DNA of 61,285 nt. Source: Phaeobacter sp. CECT 5382. Its GTDB lineage: Bacteria > Pseudomonadota > Alphaproteobacteria > Rhodobacterales > Rhodobacteraceae. A program made the translations under genes and the position numbers. The stretch's first letter is position 1, and the number at the start of each line of letters is the position of its first letter. Below are positions 9,531 through 13,441 of the stretch, piece after piece. The stretch covers positions 1-61,285 of the forward strand of contig NZ_CYSG01000022.1 of NCBI RefSeq assembly GCF_001457775.1. Reading direction: 5' to 3'. The notes below the pieces were generated by a model, which was not told where the DNA came from, did not search any database, and worked only from the letters and a program-made list of their open reading frames with translations.

Positions 9531-10322
9531 ATGACCCGCATTGACGCAAAATTCGCCGAACTCAAAGCCGCCGGAAAAAAGGCCTTTGTGTCCTATGTTA
9601 TGGCGGGAGATCCGAACTATGACAGCTCATTGGAGCTGGTAAAGGGCCTGCCCGGTGCCGGTGTTGATATCATCGAACTGGGCCTGCCCTTTACCGACCC
9701 GATGGCTGATGGTCCCACCATTCAGCTGGCCGGCCAGCGTGCCCTTGATGGCGGCATGACTTTGGAGAAAACGCTGCAACTGGCCAGCGAATTCCGCCAG
9801 ACTGACGACAGCACTCCGATCGTTTTGATGGGGTATTACAACCCGATCTACAATCGCGGCGTCGACAAATTTCTGGTGGATGCCAAGGCCGCTGGCATCG
9901 ATGGGCTAATCGTTGTGGATCTGCCTCCGGAAGAAGACGACGAGCTGTGCATCCCCGCGCAAAAGGCTGGCCTGAACTTCATCCGCCTGGCGACCCCGAC
10001 CACAGATGACGCACGCCTTCCCAAGGTGCTGCAGAACACATCGGGTTTTGTCTACTACGTGTCGATCACCGGCATCACCGGGTCAGCCGAGGCCGAAAGC
10101 GCTGATGTCGCGCCCGAAGTTGCCCGGATCAAGGCAGCCACCGATATTCCGGTGATCGTCGGTTTCGGGATCAACACGCCGGAAAAGGCCCAGAACATTG
10201 CCGCGATCTCGGATGGGGCGGTTGTTGGCAGCGCCATTGTCAGCCAAATGGCTGCCGGAAAGTCAGTAAACGAGGTTCTCGCTTTCGTGAAAACCCTGTC
10301 AGATGGTGCCCACCGGGCCTAA
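9531..10322 (+). CDS. trpA: Tryptophan synthase alpha subunit
   Basis: The 263-residue TIM barrel cleaves indole-3-glycerol phosphate to indole and glyceraldehyde 3-phosphate and passes the indole to TrpB. The catalytic Glu lies in [19 protein letters not shown] together with the substrate-binding Asp. [10 protein letters not shown] and [11 protein letters not shown] are the phosphate-binding loops. The start at 9531 has AGAGG upstream. The gene stands about 9 kb from trpB and on the opposite strand, so it is not in a trpFBA operon here. A terminator follows at 10355. Confidence 0.97.
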
Positions 10323-10390: not shown

Positions 10391-11846
10391 CAGACGGGTG
10401 TCCGGCTGTTGATAGCGCTGGTGTTTGCAGCAGGCATCCGCTGGCAGACAAGTCCCCTGCCGCAGCCAAAACCTCTCCCATCGCCTGAATCAGATCCGTC
10501 CGGCGAAAGGGTTTTGCCACATGGGCCATCATCCCCTTCGCCAAATAGGCTGCGACCTGGTGGTGCATCGCATTGGCTGACACCGCAATGACCGGCACAG
10601 GCACCAAGCCCCGCCTCTGCTCTTCGGTCCGGATCACCGCAGTGGCGGATAAACCGTCAAGAACCGGCATATTCACATCCATCAAAATCAGGTCAAAACC
10701 TGTTTGGCGCCAGTGGTGAATGGCCTCCTCACCAGTTTCAACAAAAGTGATATCCAGATCAAGTGGGCGTAGAAAATGCCGTATTACCAGTTGGTTTGTC
10801 CGACTGTCCTCGGCCACGAGAATGCGCCAACGGCGCTGCGAAAGAACCGCTTCATAGCTGCTCGCTCTGGTATCCACAGGGGGCTTTGCAGGTTCTTTGG
10901 GGGCTTCGGCTCGCGGCACGTCCAAAGACACGGTGAACGTGCTACCTTGGCCTGCCGCACTGACAAACCGGATATCGCCCGCCATTTGTTGGCAAATTTG
11001 CTGCGACACCACCAGCCCCAGACCTGTGCCCCCGTGACTGCGCGCAATACTGGCATCCGCCTGCGAGAAGGGTTGGAACAGCCGGGCCTGCTGCGCCTCG
11101 GCGATGCCCCGGCCAGTATCAGCGATGCTGAATTCAAGGTGTAGCCGACCCAGCGGCAACGCTTCGGCTTTGGCCGACAGTGTAATTCCACCCGTTTCTG
11201 TGAACTTCAGCGCATTGGACATAAGGTTGCCCAACACCTGCCGAAGCCGTGTTGGATCCAGCTGCGCCCAAAGCGTGTCCTGAGCCAACAACTTTGTAGG
11301 CAGATAAGCAAACGACAGACCTTTTTCCCGTATCGCCACTTCGAATTGTTGGCATACAGCAGCCAGAACCCCGTCGACCGGACTTGGCAAAAACTCGAGC
11401 TCCAGCTTTCCGGCCTCGACCTTGGCAAGGTCCAGAATGTCATTGATGATCGTGAGTAACATGTCCCCGCTGGAGAGAATGACCTCCAGGGCTTCTGTCT
11501 GTTCCTGTGATGTCTCGCTCTCTGCCAGACAACTCGCCATACCCAGAATCCCGTTCAAAGGCGTTCTGATTTCGTGGCTCATGACCGCCAGAAAGTTGGA
11601 TTTGGCCAGACTGGCAGCTTCGGCCTCAAGTTTTGCCCGTTCAAGATCCCGAGTTCTTTCGCGAACAACCGCATCCAGTGTCTGTGCGTGTTTATTCAGA
11701 GCCTCATTGGCCTGCACCAACTCCCTGCATTTAACTTCCAACAGATTTTCAGCTTCTTGGCGAGCGGCCTGTTCACGGGCGTAGCGGCGGCGCGAAACCC
11801 GATCCGTCGCAGATGGCACTGTCGGTTCTTTTTGTTCCTGGCACAT
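10377..11846 (-). CDS. Hybrid histidine kinase with receiver domain (HnoK-like)
   Basis: The protein has 489 residues. It begins with a coiled-coil of about 80 residues, then a HisKA domain with the phospho-acceptor His in MSHEIRTPLNG, a HATPase domain (NLMSNALKFT, DTGRGI, GGTGLGLVVSQQ) and a C-terminal receiver with the Asp in LILMDVNMPVLDG. No transmembrane helix or PAS/GAF sensor is present, so it needs a partner for input. The gene starts three bases after an H-NOX-like gene, an arrangement typical of H-NOX/HnoK pairs in which nitric oxide binding to the haem protein controls the kinase. That partner appears damaged here. No separate output gene lies next to it. Confidence 0.88.
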   Translation of the reverse strand: MCQEQKEPTVPSATDRVSRRRYAREQAARQEAENLLEVKCRELVQANEALNKHAQTLDAVVRERTRDLERAKLEAEAASLAKSNFLAVMSHEIRTPLNGILGMASCLAESETSQEQTEALEVILSSGDMLLTIINDILDLAKVEAGKLELEFLPSPVDGVLAAVCQQFEVAIREKGLSFAYLPTKLLAQDTLWAQLDPTRLRQVLGNLMSNALKFTETGGITLSAKAEALPLGRLHLEFSIADTGRGIAEAQQARLFQPFSQADASIARSHGGTGLGLVVSQQICQQMAGDIRFVSAAGQGSTFTVSLDVPRAEAPKEPAKPPVDTRASSYEAVLSQRRWRILVAEDSRTNQLVIRHFLRPLDLDITFVETGEEAIHHWRQTGFDLILMDVNMPVLDGLSATAVIRTEEQRRGLVPVPVIAVSANAMHHQVAAYLAKGMMAHVAKPFRRTDLIQAMGEVLAAAGDLSASGCLLQTPALSTAGHPSEKGP

Positions 11847-11849
11847 GGG

Positions 11850-12113
11850 CTACGATACCCGCTCGATCAAAAACTCGACCATCTCCGGCTCCTTTTCAGG
11901 ATAATCCGTCAAGGAGATCACCGCCTTCTCTGCAAACTGCGCAAGACAGGCCCCGATCAGGGTCAGCAGTTCCTCGCTGGGGTACGTCCCGCCTCTGGTA
12001 TAGGTTCCGCCACTGGGCAAATCCGCCGCATCGATAATCTCGTCAATCTCGTCTTCGCTCAACACCGTCTCGGCCATTTCAAGCAACTCAGTAAAAACCA
12101 AACCCTTCACCAC
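11850..12113 (-). CDS. H-NOX (haem NO-binding) protein with an internal in-frame deletion
   Basis: The product has 87 residues, whereas H-NOX proteins have about 180-190. The first 45 residues (KGLVFTELLEM, EIIDAADLPSGGTYT, GTYPSEELL) match the N-terminal subdomain of alphaproteobacterial H-NOX. The last 38 (LIGACLAQFAEKAVISL and a final beta strand) match the C-terminal end. The middle, which would hold the proximal haem-ligand His and the YxSxR porphyrin clamp, is missing while the frame is kept. Haem binding is therefore not expected. It lies three bases upstream of the hybrid kinase. It is either a degenerating gene or a haem-free remnant that still contacts the kinase. The start codon context (ATG at 12113) is ordinary. 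Confidence 0.72.
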   Translation of the reverse strand: MVKGLVFTELLEMAETVLSEDEIDEIIDAADLPSGGTYTRGGTYPSEELLTLIGACLAQFAEKAVISLTDYPEKEPEMVEFLIERVS

Positions 12114-12274
12114 ATGCCTCCAATCAACACTCCAATCTCATTTTGATACCACATTTTCTCACTGATGGCATTTGCAACGAAAATCATCGGCAAAAGCCAC
12201 GATTGCACCGCGGAGTAAAAATTGGTAAGGAAACTTGACCACGCTAGGGCCGCATTAGGGCAAGGAGGCATTCA

Positions 12275-13441
12275 GTGCCGGTAATTACCAATATCCAGGA
12301 CCTCAAACGCATCTACGAGCGGCGCGTGCCGCGGATGTTCTTTGACTACGCAGAAAGCGGCAGCTGGACAGAACAGACCTTTCGCGAAAACACCTCTGAT
12401 TTTGAAAAAATCCGCCTGCGCCAGCGCGTCGCCGTGGATATGTCCGGGCGCACCACCAGCGGCAAAATGATCGGCGAAGACGTCGCCATGCCCGTGGCGC
12501 TGGCCCCTGTCGGCCTCACCGGAATGCAGCACGCAGATGGTGAAATCAAAGCCGCCAAGGCAGCTGAAGACTTTGGCGTCCCCTTTACACTTTCGACCAT
12601 GTCGATCAACTCGATCGAAGATGTTGCCGAGGCCACGACCAAACCGTTCTGGTTTCAGCTCTATACCATGAACGACGAAGACTATGTGCGCCGTCTGATC
12701 CAGCGGGCCAAAGATGCCAAATGCTCTGCTTTGGTGATCACGCTGGATCTGCAAATTCTCGGTCAGCGCCACAAGGATCTGAAAAACGGCCTGTCCGCCC
12801 CGCCGAAACTGACGCCCAAAACCATTGCCAATCTGATGACAAAATGGGCCTGGGGCATTGAAATGTTGGGAGCTAAGCGGCGTGAGTTTGGCAATATTGT
12901 CGGCCATGTCGAAGGCATCTCGGACGCCTCGTCGCTTGGGGCCTGGACATCGGAACAGTTCGATCTCTCGCTGGATTGGGGCAAGATCGCTAAGCTGAAA
13001 GAGATGTGGGGCGGCAAGGTGATCCTCAAGGGAATTCTTGACGCCGAAGACGCCAAAATGGCTGTCAAAGTTGGTGCTGACGCCATTGTTGTGTCCAACC
13101 ACGGCGGCCGCCAGCTAGACGGGGCACTCAGCTCGATCCGGATGCTGCCACAAATCATGGACGCGGTCGGCGGTGAGGTCGAGGTGATCCTGGATAGCGG
13201 TATTCGCTCTGGTCAGGACGTGCTCAAATCCCTGGCTCTGGGCGCATCCGGCACCATGATCGGTCGTGCCTTTGTCTATGGTCTTGGAGCCATGGGGCAA
13301 AAGGGCGTAACCACCGCGCTGGAAGTGATACACAAGGAGCTGGACACCACCATGGCCCTGTGTGGAGAACGCAAGGTCAGCGATCTGGGGCGTCACAACC
13401 TGCTGATCCCCCAAAATTTTGAAGGCGAGTGGCAGGACTAG
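12275..13441 (+). CDS. lldD: FMN-dependent alpha-hydroxy-acid (L-lactate) dehydrogenase
   Basis: The 388-residue FMN barrel oxidises L-lactate or a related 2-hydroxy acid to the keto acid and feeds the quinone pool. The N-terminal RRVPRMFFDYAESGS motif, the flavin-binding APVGLTGMQH, LSTMS and WFQLY segments, and the catalytic His with Arg in VVSNHGGRQLDG are all present, then DSGIRSGQDVLK for FMN phosphate. The start is GTG at 12275 with AAGGAGG seven bases upstream. It stands alone, and no lactate regulator or permease adjoins it. Other 2-hydroxy acids, such as glycolate or mandelate, cannot be excluded as substrate. Confidence 0.92.
   Translation: MPVITNIQDLKRIYERRVPRMFFDYAESGSWTEQTFRENTSDFEKIRLRQRVAVDMSGRTTSGKMIGEDVAMPVALAPVGLTGMQHADGEIKAAKAAEDFGVPFTLSTMSINSIEDVAEATTKPFWFQLYTMNDEDYVRRLIQRAKDAKCSALVITLDLQILGQRHKDLKNGLSAPPKLTPKTIANLMTKWAWGIEMLGAKRREFGNIVGHVEGISDASSLGAWTSEQFDLSLDWGKIAKLKEMWGGKVILKGILDAEDAKMAVKVGADAIVVSNHGGRQLDGALSSIRMLPQIMDAVGGEVEVILDSGIRSGQDVLKSLALGASGTMIGRAFVYGLGAMGQKGVTTALEVIHKELDTTMALCGERKVSDLGRHNLLIPQNFEGEWQD

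Follow-up and report, generated by a model that had tools for sequence, protein, structure and literature searches.

How a sensor kinase gene fares once its sensor has been cut down is the question raised by a locus in the window analysed here, a stretch of 61,285 nucleotides from the marine bacterium Phaeobacter sp. CECT 5382. Between trpA and a gene for an FMN-dependent dehydrogenase lie a hybrid histidine kinase gene and, directly upstream of it, a short open reading frame (ORF) made from the two ends of an H-NOX domain (Table 1). Judged from its sequence, the locus captures a signalling kinase in the course of uncoupling from its sensor. The reading examined here is that gas sensing was lost and the kinase kept, the remnant ORF surviving at least as the translational coupler of the kinase, and its chances seem to us about even.

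Table 1. Features of the trpA-FMN dehydrogenase locus, in positions of the window.
Feature	Position	Strand	Remarks
trpA, syntenic anchor	9531..10322	+	flanks kinase
Hybrid histidine kinase, 489 aa	10377..11846	-	HisKA, HATPase_c, receiver (Pfam; motif check)
Kinase N-terminal coil, VSRRRYAREQAARQEAENLLEVKCRELVQAN	11706..11798	-	typical of H-NOX-partnered kinases of this class; 53.3 bits on coil model
Spacer CCC	11847..11849	-	3 bases, remnant stop to kinase start
H-NOX remnant ORF	11850..12113	-	GTG start, 87 codons, TAG stop; 86 codons from second GTG at 12110
C-terminal H-NOX part of remnant	11853..11960	-	residues 52-87; end of helix G and last two strands; overlaps junction; profile match 146-179
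Deletion junction CTG ATC GGG GCC (LIGA)	11949..11960	-	codons 52-55; profile matches, alignment
N-terminal H-NOX part of remnant	11949..12110	-	residues 2-55; helices A, B and start of helix C; profile match 2-54, 68.9 bits; model
GGAGG ribosome binding site of remnant	12117..12121	-	duplex -9.3 kcal/mol
FMN-dependent dehydrogenase, other syntenic anchor	12275..13441	+	divergent from remnant

The remnant is not a chance ORF, since both of its halves are homologous to H-NOX. The Pfam HNOB model matched residues 3-60 at 25.3 bits, just below the cut-off of 25.5. A family profile of 36 full-length H-NOX proteins (from 34 of the 49 loci read, plus L120 and L121; 14 loci of other groups were excluded, as was L037, whose protein is identical to that of L014) matched the remnant twice, with residues 3-55 on profile positions 2-54 and residues 52-85 on positions 146-179, the latter at 10.5 bits. 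Taken alone, the C-terminal 39 residues scored 14.3 bits against 8.7 for the best shuffled version (5000 shuffles, 3535 scored), and this half is thus H-NOX too; the initial annotation had made its reading hang on just such similarity, which alignment and profile both show. The stub ends in EFLIER, its nearest full relatives, the 182-residue proteins of L120 and L121, in EFMIEW and EFLIER, and its GC3 is 0.70, little different from the 0.60-0.69 of five genes nearby. The frame and the three-base spacing to the kinase were preserved, as first annotated, with a GTG start, a TAG stop and CCC before the kinase ATG at 11846. The start was said to be kept as well, and a GTG does follow the GGAGG, but the likelier start is the second GTG, which lies 6 bases past GGAGG and aligns with H-NOX Met1; the preferred spacing between a GGAGG and its start codon entered into this choice. 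Similarly, two H-NOX ends are joined as described, but their lengths are about 54 residues on the N-terminal and about 32-35 on the C-terminal side, rather than about 45 and 38.

Alignment with L120 and L121 placed the loss at 95-96 residues, among them the proximal His and the YxSxR motif, in agreement with the initial estimate of about 95 residues carrying both. Among the 49 H-NOX proteins read, 48 have the proximal His at the haem position and 47 match YxSxR (the exceptions are L038 and L041). Since both are lost, the stub should be unable to hold haem in the H-NOX way, and the haem-based sensing step appears to be gone from it. The single protein read that departs at the His position, encoded at L025 (1501-2046, genome G097) beside an adjoining kinase gene, belongs to the same class, is full-length and has Gln in its place (GELQAEVHKLYP), possibly making it another haem-less form. 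In the window, the haem module was lost by an internal in-frame deletion, probably a single one, possibly via a short repeat around CTGATCG-GCC. The original N-side site (LVxA) and C-side site (LIEA or LIEG) are alike in some relatives; the two share 4-10 of 12 bases in 36 relatives (median 7), and a match as good as that of the junction pair is reached by 6% of the in-frame site pairs of the median relative. Such microhomology is compatible with slippage and falls short of proof.

The residues that were kept have diverged unevenly. Of the 23 sites in the N-half that at least 90% of 33 relatives conserve, the stub departs at 6 (5 of 22 without the start codon), no relative departs at more than 3 of the 23, and at two of the five departing sites (S18 and I22) the g305 proteins depart in the alignment too. 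Mean identity to 32 relatives was 0.576 for residues 2-35 (6 of the 32 lower), 0.444 for residues 36-45 (minimum of the other relatives 0.652), 0.448 for residues 46-54 (minimum of the others 0.341) and 0.246 for the C-terminal part (1 of the 32 lower). Divergence thus appears concentrated in residues 36-45, with residues 2-35 ordinary. Uniform decay at the rate of residues 36-54 predicts 10.7 extra changes in residues 2-35, and 1.6 were observed, a nominal P of 0.0004 for segments picked after the data had been seen and for changes that could predate the deletion. The stub carries changes unseen at the same columns in 33 full relatives, one of them at an invariant site (V40G); of its odd residues, R39 and T42 are found in H-NOX of other groups, and G40 is absent from those listed.

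An AlphaFold2 model of the stub, built with the family alignment (pLDDT 78, pTM 0.61), predicted helices A and B, one helix joining C and G, and the last two strands as a hairpin; the full L121 protein was modelled with its complete set of elements (pLDDT 88). The complete fold of about 180 residues in two subdomains exceeds what the 86-87 residues of the stub contain. The best Foldseek match of the stub model was the H-NOX of K. algicida (E 7e-3, TM 0.64 by query), and the search returned no match at E 0.001.

The adjoining kinase retains its H box, N box, both G boxes, the receiver D motif and the conserved K-P. A Pfam search at E up to 1 found nothing besides the three domains in Table 1, bearing out the initial statement that the kinase has no other sensor. 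Its distance relative to that of trpA and the FMN dehydrogenase was 6.9 (bootstrap 4.4-9.3) on a fixed tree of 18 of the 43 loci, the same ratio being 8.8 and 5.2 in full-H-NOX lineages, 8.3 in g294 and highest in g296, at 13.1 (bootstrap 8.9-20.2, overlapping the others). A test for acceleration of the window kinase against its flanks detected none, its ratio falling between 5.2 and 8.8; in absolute distance it stands at 1.6 times the g305 kinases (bootstrap 1.3-2.2). Motifs and rate alike suggest a kinase without sign of decay, whose synonymous sites were saturated in both dN/dS comparisons made. A sensor need not be present for such a kinase to be kept, because two other genera, g294 and g296, keep it with almost nothing or nothing of H-NOX. 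Among these orphan kinases dN/dS ranged from 0.07 to 0.16 across five pairs from g294 and from 0.10 to 0.13 across three from g296, rough values since dS was above 1 in 6 of the 8 pairs, and it was 0.058 in the full-H-NOX kinase pair L080/L120. The values point to purifying selection on the orphan kinases of both genera.

The N-terminal coil of the window kinase scores within the range of full-H-NOX kinases (46-68 bits for 26 kinases, left-one-out), the kinases of g294 scoring -16 to 0 and those of g296, in which the coil is shortened, 10-16. The motif [VL][SL]RxRY occurs in 26 of the 27 full-H-NOX kinases (L037 omitted as a duplicate) and in the one stub-associated kinase, but in none of 10 from g294 and none of 4 from g296. 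The VSRxRY coil thus tracks the presence of H-NOX and is a candidate docking segment, in a correlation that amounts to at most two independent events because the orphans represent two genera.

A search with the stub gave a match in 40 of 394 genomes of the family, its own included; from the named loci we infer this family to be Rhodobacteraceae. The other matches were open frames of at least 181 residues, with the sole exception of a 63-residue frame in genome G307. A second stub was found neither in 12 genomes of the genus nor in 340 relatives, the latter a set overlapping the other two, in searches at E 0.001 that would overlook remnants as short as those of g294. The deletion, which the initial annotation proposed to seek in other isolates, was thus seen in its own genome alone among those searched. 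In 11 of 11 sampled genus-mates trpA stands next to the FMN dehydrogenase gene with neither H-NOX nor kinase between them. In six named Rhodobacteraceae loci (L034, L036, L037, L040, L047 and L049, out of 20 named loci, the remaining 14 of which belong to other groups), trpA, kinase, H-NOX, FMN dehydrogenase and rplY occur together, and trpA adjoins the kinase gene at 21 of the 28 kinase loci whose H-NOX is full-length. This synteny with full H-NOX outside the genus makes an ancestral origin of the pair at the site the simplest account, and loss the simplest account of the vacant sites in the genus-mates. The gene order with full H-NOX also occurs in Mameliella and other genera, on which ground a horizontal gain of the pair by this species was rejected. 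Most of the genus-mate spacers compared (L067-L076) carry a repeat, TTGGTAA..TTACCA, upstream of the dehydrogenase gene, which looks like a putative operator for it; in the window the repeat lies at 12222-12242 in imperfect form (TTGACCA).

The genome of the stub encodes two further HNOB proteins. One (C7:75346-75810, minus strand; L002 1381-1968) has 195 residues, carries Pro where the haem His would stand and lacks YxSxR, and its gene has a 4-base overlap with that of a GGDEF protein. Its sequence fits group-5 H-NOX, which mostly have Pro at that site according to an excerpt of a review (PMC8738867), and the pair may resemble HNOX/Dgc1 of D. shibae as described in part of PMC7232146. Some HNOB match is present in 296 of the 394 family genomes, many of a strength similar to that of this protein. 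The other (C1:188583-189065, minus strand; L129 6521-7069) is a full-length H-NOX with haem His and YYSDR, perhaps the remaining H-NOX NO sensor of the genome; beside it lies a gene for a protein judged by eye to be GGDEF-EAL-like (L129 4679-6487). This paralogue was considered as a partner of the kinase in trans and judged unlikely, because its own GGDEF-EAL gene adjoins.

The same site is found in further states in related bacteria. Full H-NOX and kinase are present in 3 of 8 g305 genomes. In g294, which we infer to be Tritonibacter because the T. mobilis record L079 is nearly identical to L109 of g294, the search, with the limit applied, found the kinase in 9 of 18 genomes, and no H-NOX match was obtained in the nine loci or in L079. 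Upstream of these kinases lie mini-ORFs of 32 to 51 codons. In 9 of the 10 loci the mini-ORF begins at a GTG or ATG downstream of a GGAGG-like site and ends in an ATGA overlap with the kinase, at start-to-start distances of 95, 110, 116, 119, 131 and 137 bases, all 2 mod 3. In the tenth locus (L112, genome G410) the frame differs and the kinase starts further on, with an 8-base overlap of the ORFs kept (ATGTCTGA). The peptides have little in common except (V/M)xVVF, in 8 of 10, which resembles the H-NOX start MKGxVF; position and start suggest homology. In g296 the kinase is present in 4 of 4 genomes, with no H-NOX match and no common upstream ORF at the four loci. Genome G307 holds between trpA and the FMN dehydrogenase gene (contig C129; L131 2560-3400) an H-NOX gene broken by frameshift and a piece of the kinase gene in which residues 34-97 matched, so its 63-residue frame was rejected as a second stub and classed as a frameshifted pseudogene; here the pair appears to have decayed together, and another contig (C347) carries a full H-NOX with a more distant kinase.

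The kinase tree grouped stub, g294 and g296 (90/63). In the tree of trpA and the FMN dehydrogenase (36 of the 43 loci, L080 and L120 just 40% filled), the window clustered with g305, g296 and L083 (96/93), to the exclusion of g294. Kinase trees with the window, g305 and g296 together (AU p 0.22) or with the window and g305 together (AU p 0.13) were not rejected. That stub, g294 and g296 go back to a single loss was considered; this is favoured by the kinase tree, and the flank tree differs.

These states suggest a sequence of events in which an ancestral pair of H-NOX and hybrid kinase stood between trpA and the FMN dehydrogenase gene and then lost the haem module, the kinase being kept and presumably working without gas input. 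The remnant ORF would stay open because the stronger ribosome site is its own, and ribosomes ending there would start the kinase 3 bases on. Gaps between H-NOX and kinase genes in 28 relatives range from -13 to +15, with +3 commonest, and the window pair is co-directional at +3. Its kinase site is predicted at -6.2 kcal/mol, weaker than that of the remnant; means were -8.5 upstream and -4.3 for the kinase in 28 of the 36 full loci, and -10.0 for the mini-ORF and -5.2 for the kinase in 10 g294 loci. No sigma-70-like site turned up when 11700-12400 was scanned for promoters. The remnant has the stronger upstream site and very short gap of a CbrX-type leader. In P. putida the CbrA kinase needs translation of cbrX, whose peptide is dispensable (excerpt of PMC6591292), and coupling requires overlaps or very short distances, about 20 nt almost abolishing it (excerpt of PMC10666635). 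By analogy, termination and reinitiation across the 3-base gap is plausible, a coupler role being read from the anatomy of the locus and from its relatives. Several points speak against it: the kinase's own site is stronger than the relatives have on average, and in g294 a site of -6 or better precedes 3 of 10 kinases; for a single g294 mini-ORF, a frame of fixed length would be open by chance with a probability of 0.33-0.86, which is not small, and the g294 case consists of several non-independent loci in one genus; coupling would not be indispensable, because in g296 the kinase persists at all four loci with no upstream ORF shared among them. Conservation of the stub at the protein level also appears to exceed what a mere coupler would need, and the deletion may be recent, in which case no role is required.

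This last point leads to the chief rival, plain recent decay, in which a new deletion left a roleless remnant whose frame and coil have not yet degraded and the pair will go as it went in the genus, a reading that we consider rather unlikely. It draws on the restriction of the stub to one genome among those searched, the absence of both genes in all the sampled genus-mates, the broken pair at the same locus in G307, and the two further HNOB genes, one with its haem His. The intact kinase, not accelerated against its flanks, and the uneven divergence of the stub argue otherwise, as does G307 in showing that frameshifts occur here and that the kinase can go together with its partner; yet all these observations are compatible with a loop that had already changed when the deletion, a very recent one, took place. 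Collapse of a full-length gene by assembly or sequencing error would likewise explain why the deletion is known from a single isolate, with a draft genome of 56 contigs, but repeats of about 12 bases are rarely collapsed by assemblers and changes such as V40G are unusual for a working full-length gene, so that an artefact is very improbable.

The initial annotation offered either decay or a haem-free input; the kinase shows no decay and the coupler is a third role that it did not name, but a haem-free input keeps support from the coil and the uneven conservation. As a regulatory subunit, a mini-H-NOX of about 86 residues would dock on the kinase coil and fix the state of the kinase or relay another signal. 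In line with this are the retained coil, the contrast between residues 2-35, conserved as in full proteins, and the diverged loop 36-45, the compact model whose best Foldseek match is an H-NOX, and HDX and NMR data said to place partner contacts on both H-NOX subdomains (part of PMC8738867). About half of the domain is missing, however, and the model was built with the relatives' alignment at moderate confidence and found no Foldseek match at E 0.001; coil and conservation are also expected after a recent deletion, the 36-45 segment was chosen post hoc, and the coil correlation comes from two orphan genera. We regard such a regulatory subunit as doubtful. The more specific proposal that a mini-H-NOX with helix C joined to G docks on the VSRxRY coil and sets kinase activity without gas, as a fixed or differently tuned subunit, is unlikely; if true, it would place the pair partway along the path that leads from a gas sensor of two proteins to an orphan kinase. 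Docking of this kind could be compatible with the coupler role.

The wider interest of the locus lies in its range of states. In related bacteria the site between trpA and the FMN dehydrogenase gene is found with a full sensor, half a sensor, a short ORF, no sensor, a broken pair or nothing, a series that opens two questions to test: by what route a kinase comes free of its sensor and is still kept, and whether the frame of a sensor may persist after it as a device for translation. The open-licence literature searched yielded no description of a half-deleted H-NOX with a kinase or of coupler ORFs derived from H-NOX; His-less and apo H-NOX are already known (excerpts of PMC8738867 and PMC7108781), and according to the part available of the 2022 review, the complex of an H-NOX with its partner lacks a high-resolution structure (PMC8738867).

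Compared with known systems, the pair shares with the H-NOX/HnoK-type pairs, in their Rhodobacteraceae hybrid-kinase form, the locus, gene order, spacing, kinase architecture and coil, and both ends of the H-NOX are kept; unlike them, the stub has its haem module deleted together with the proximal His and YxSxR, which should make the known kind of gas sensing impossible. The apo H-NOX of V. cholerae (PMC7108781) and the group-5 H-NOX (PMC8738867), in the excerpts available, are likewise thought to act without haem, but they are full-length, whereas the stub is without about half of the domain. CbrX-CbrA of Pseudomonas putida, as presented in part of PMC6591292, similarly has a short ORF with a ribosome site directly before a histidine kinase gene; there cbrX and cbrA share 17 nt and their coupling is a measured one, whereas here the upstream ORF is a cut-down sensor gene, 3 nt away, with coupling suggested by the arrangement of the two genes.
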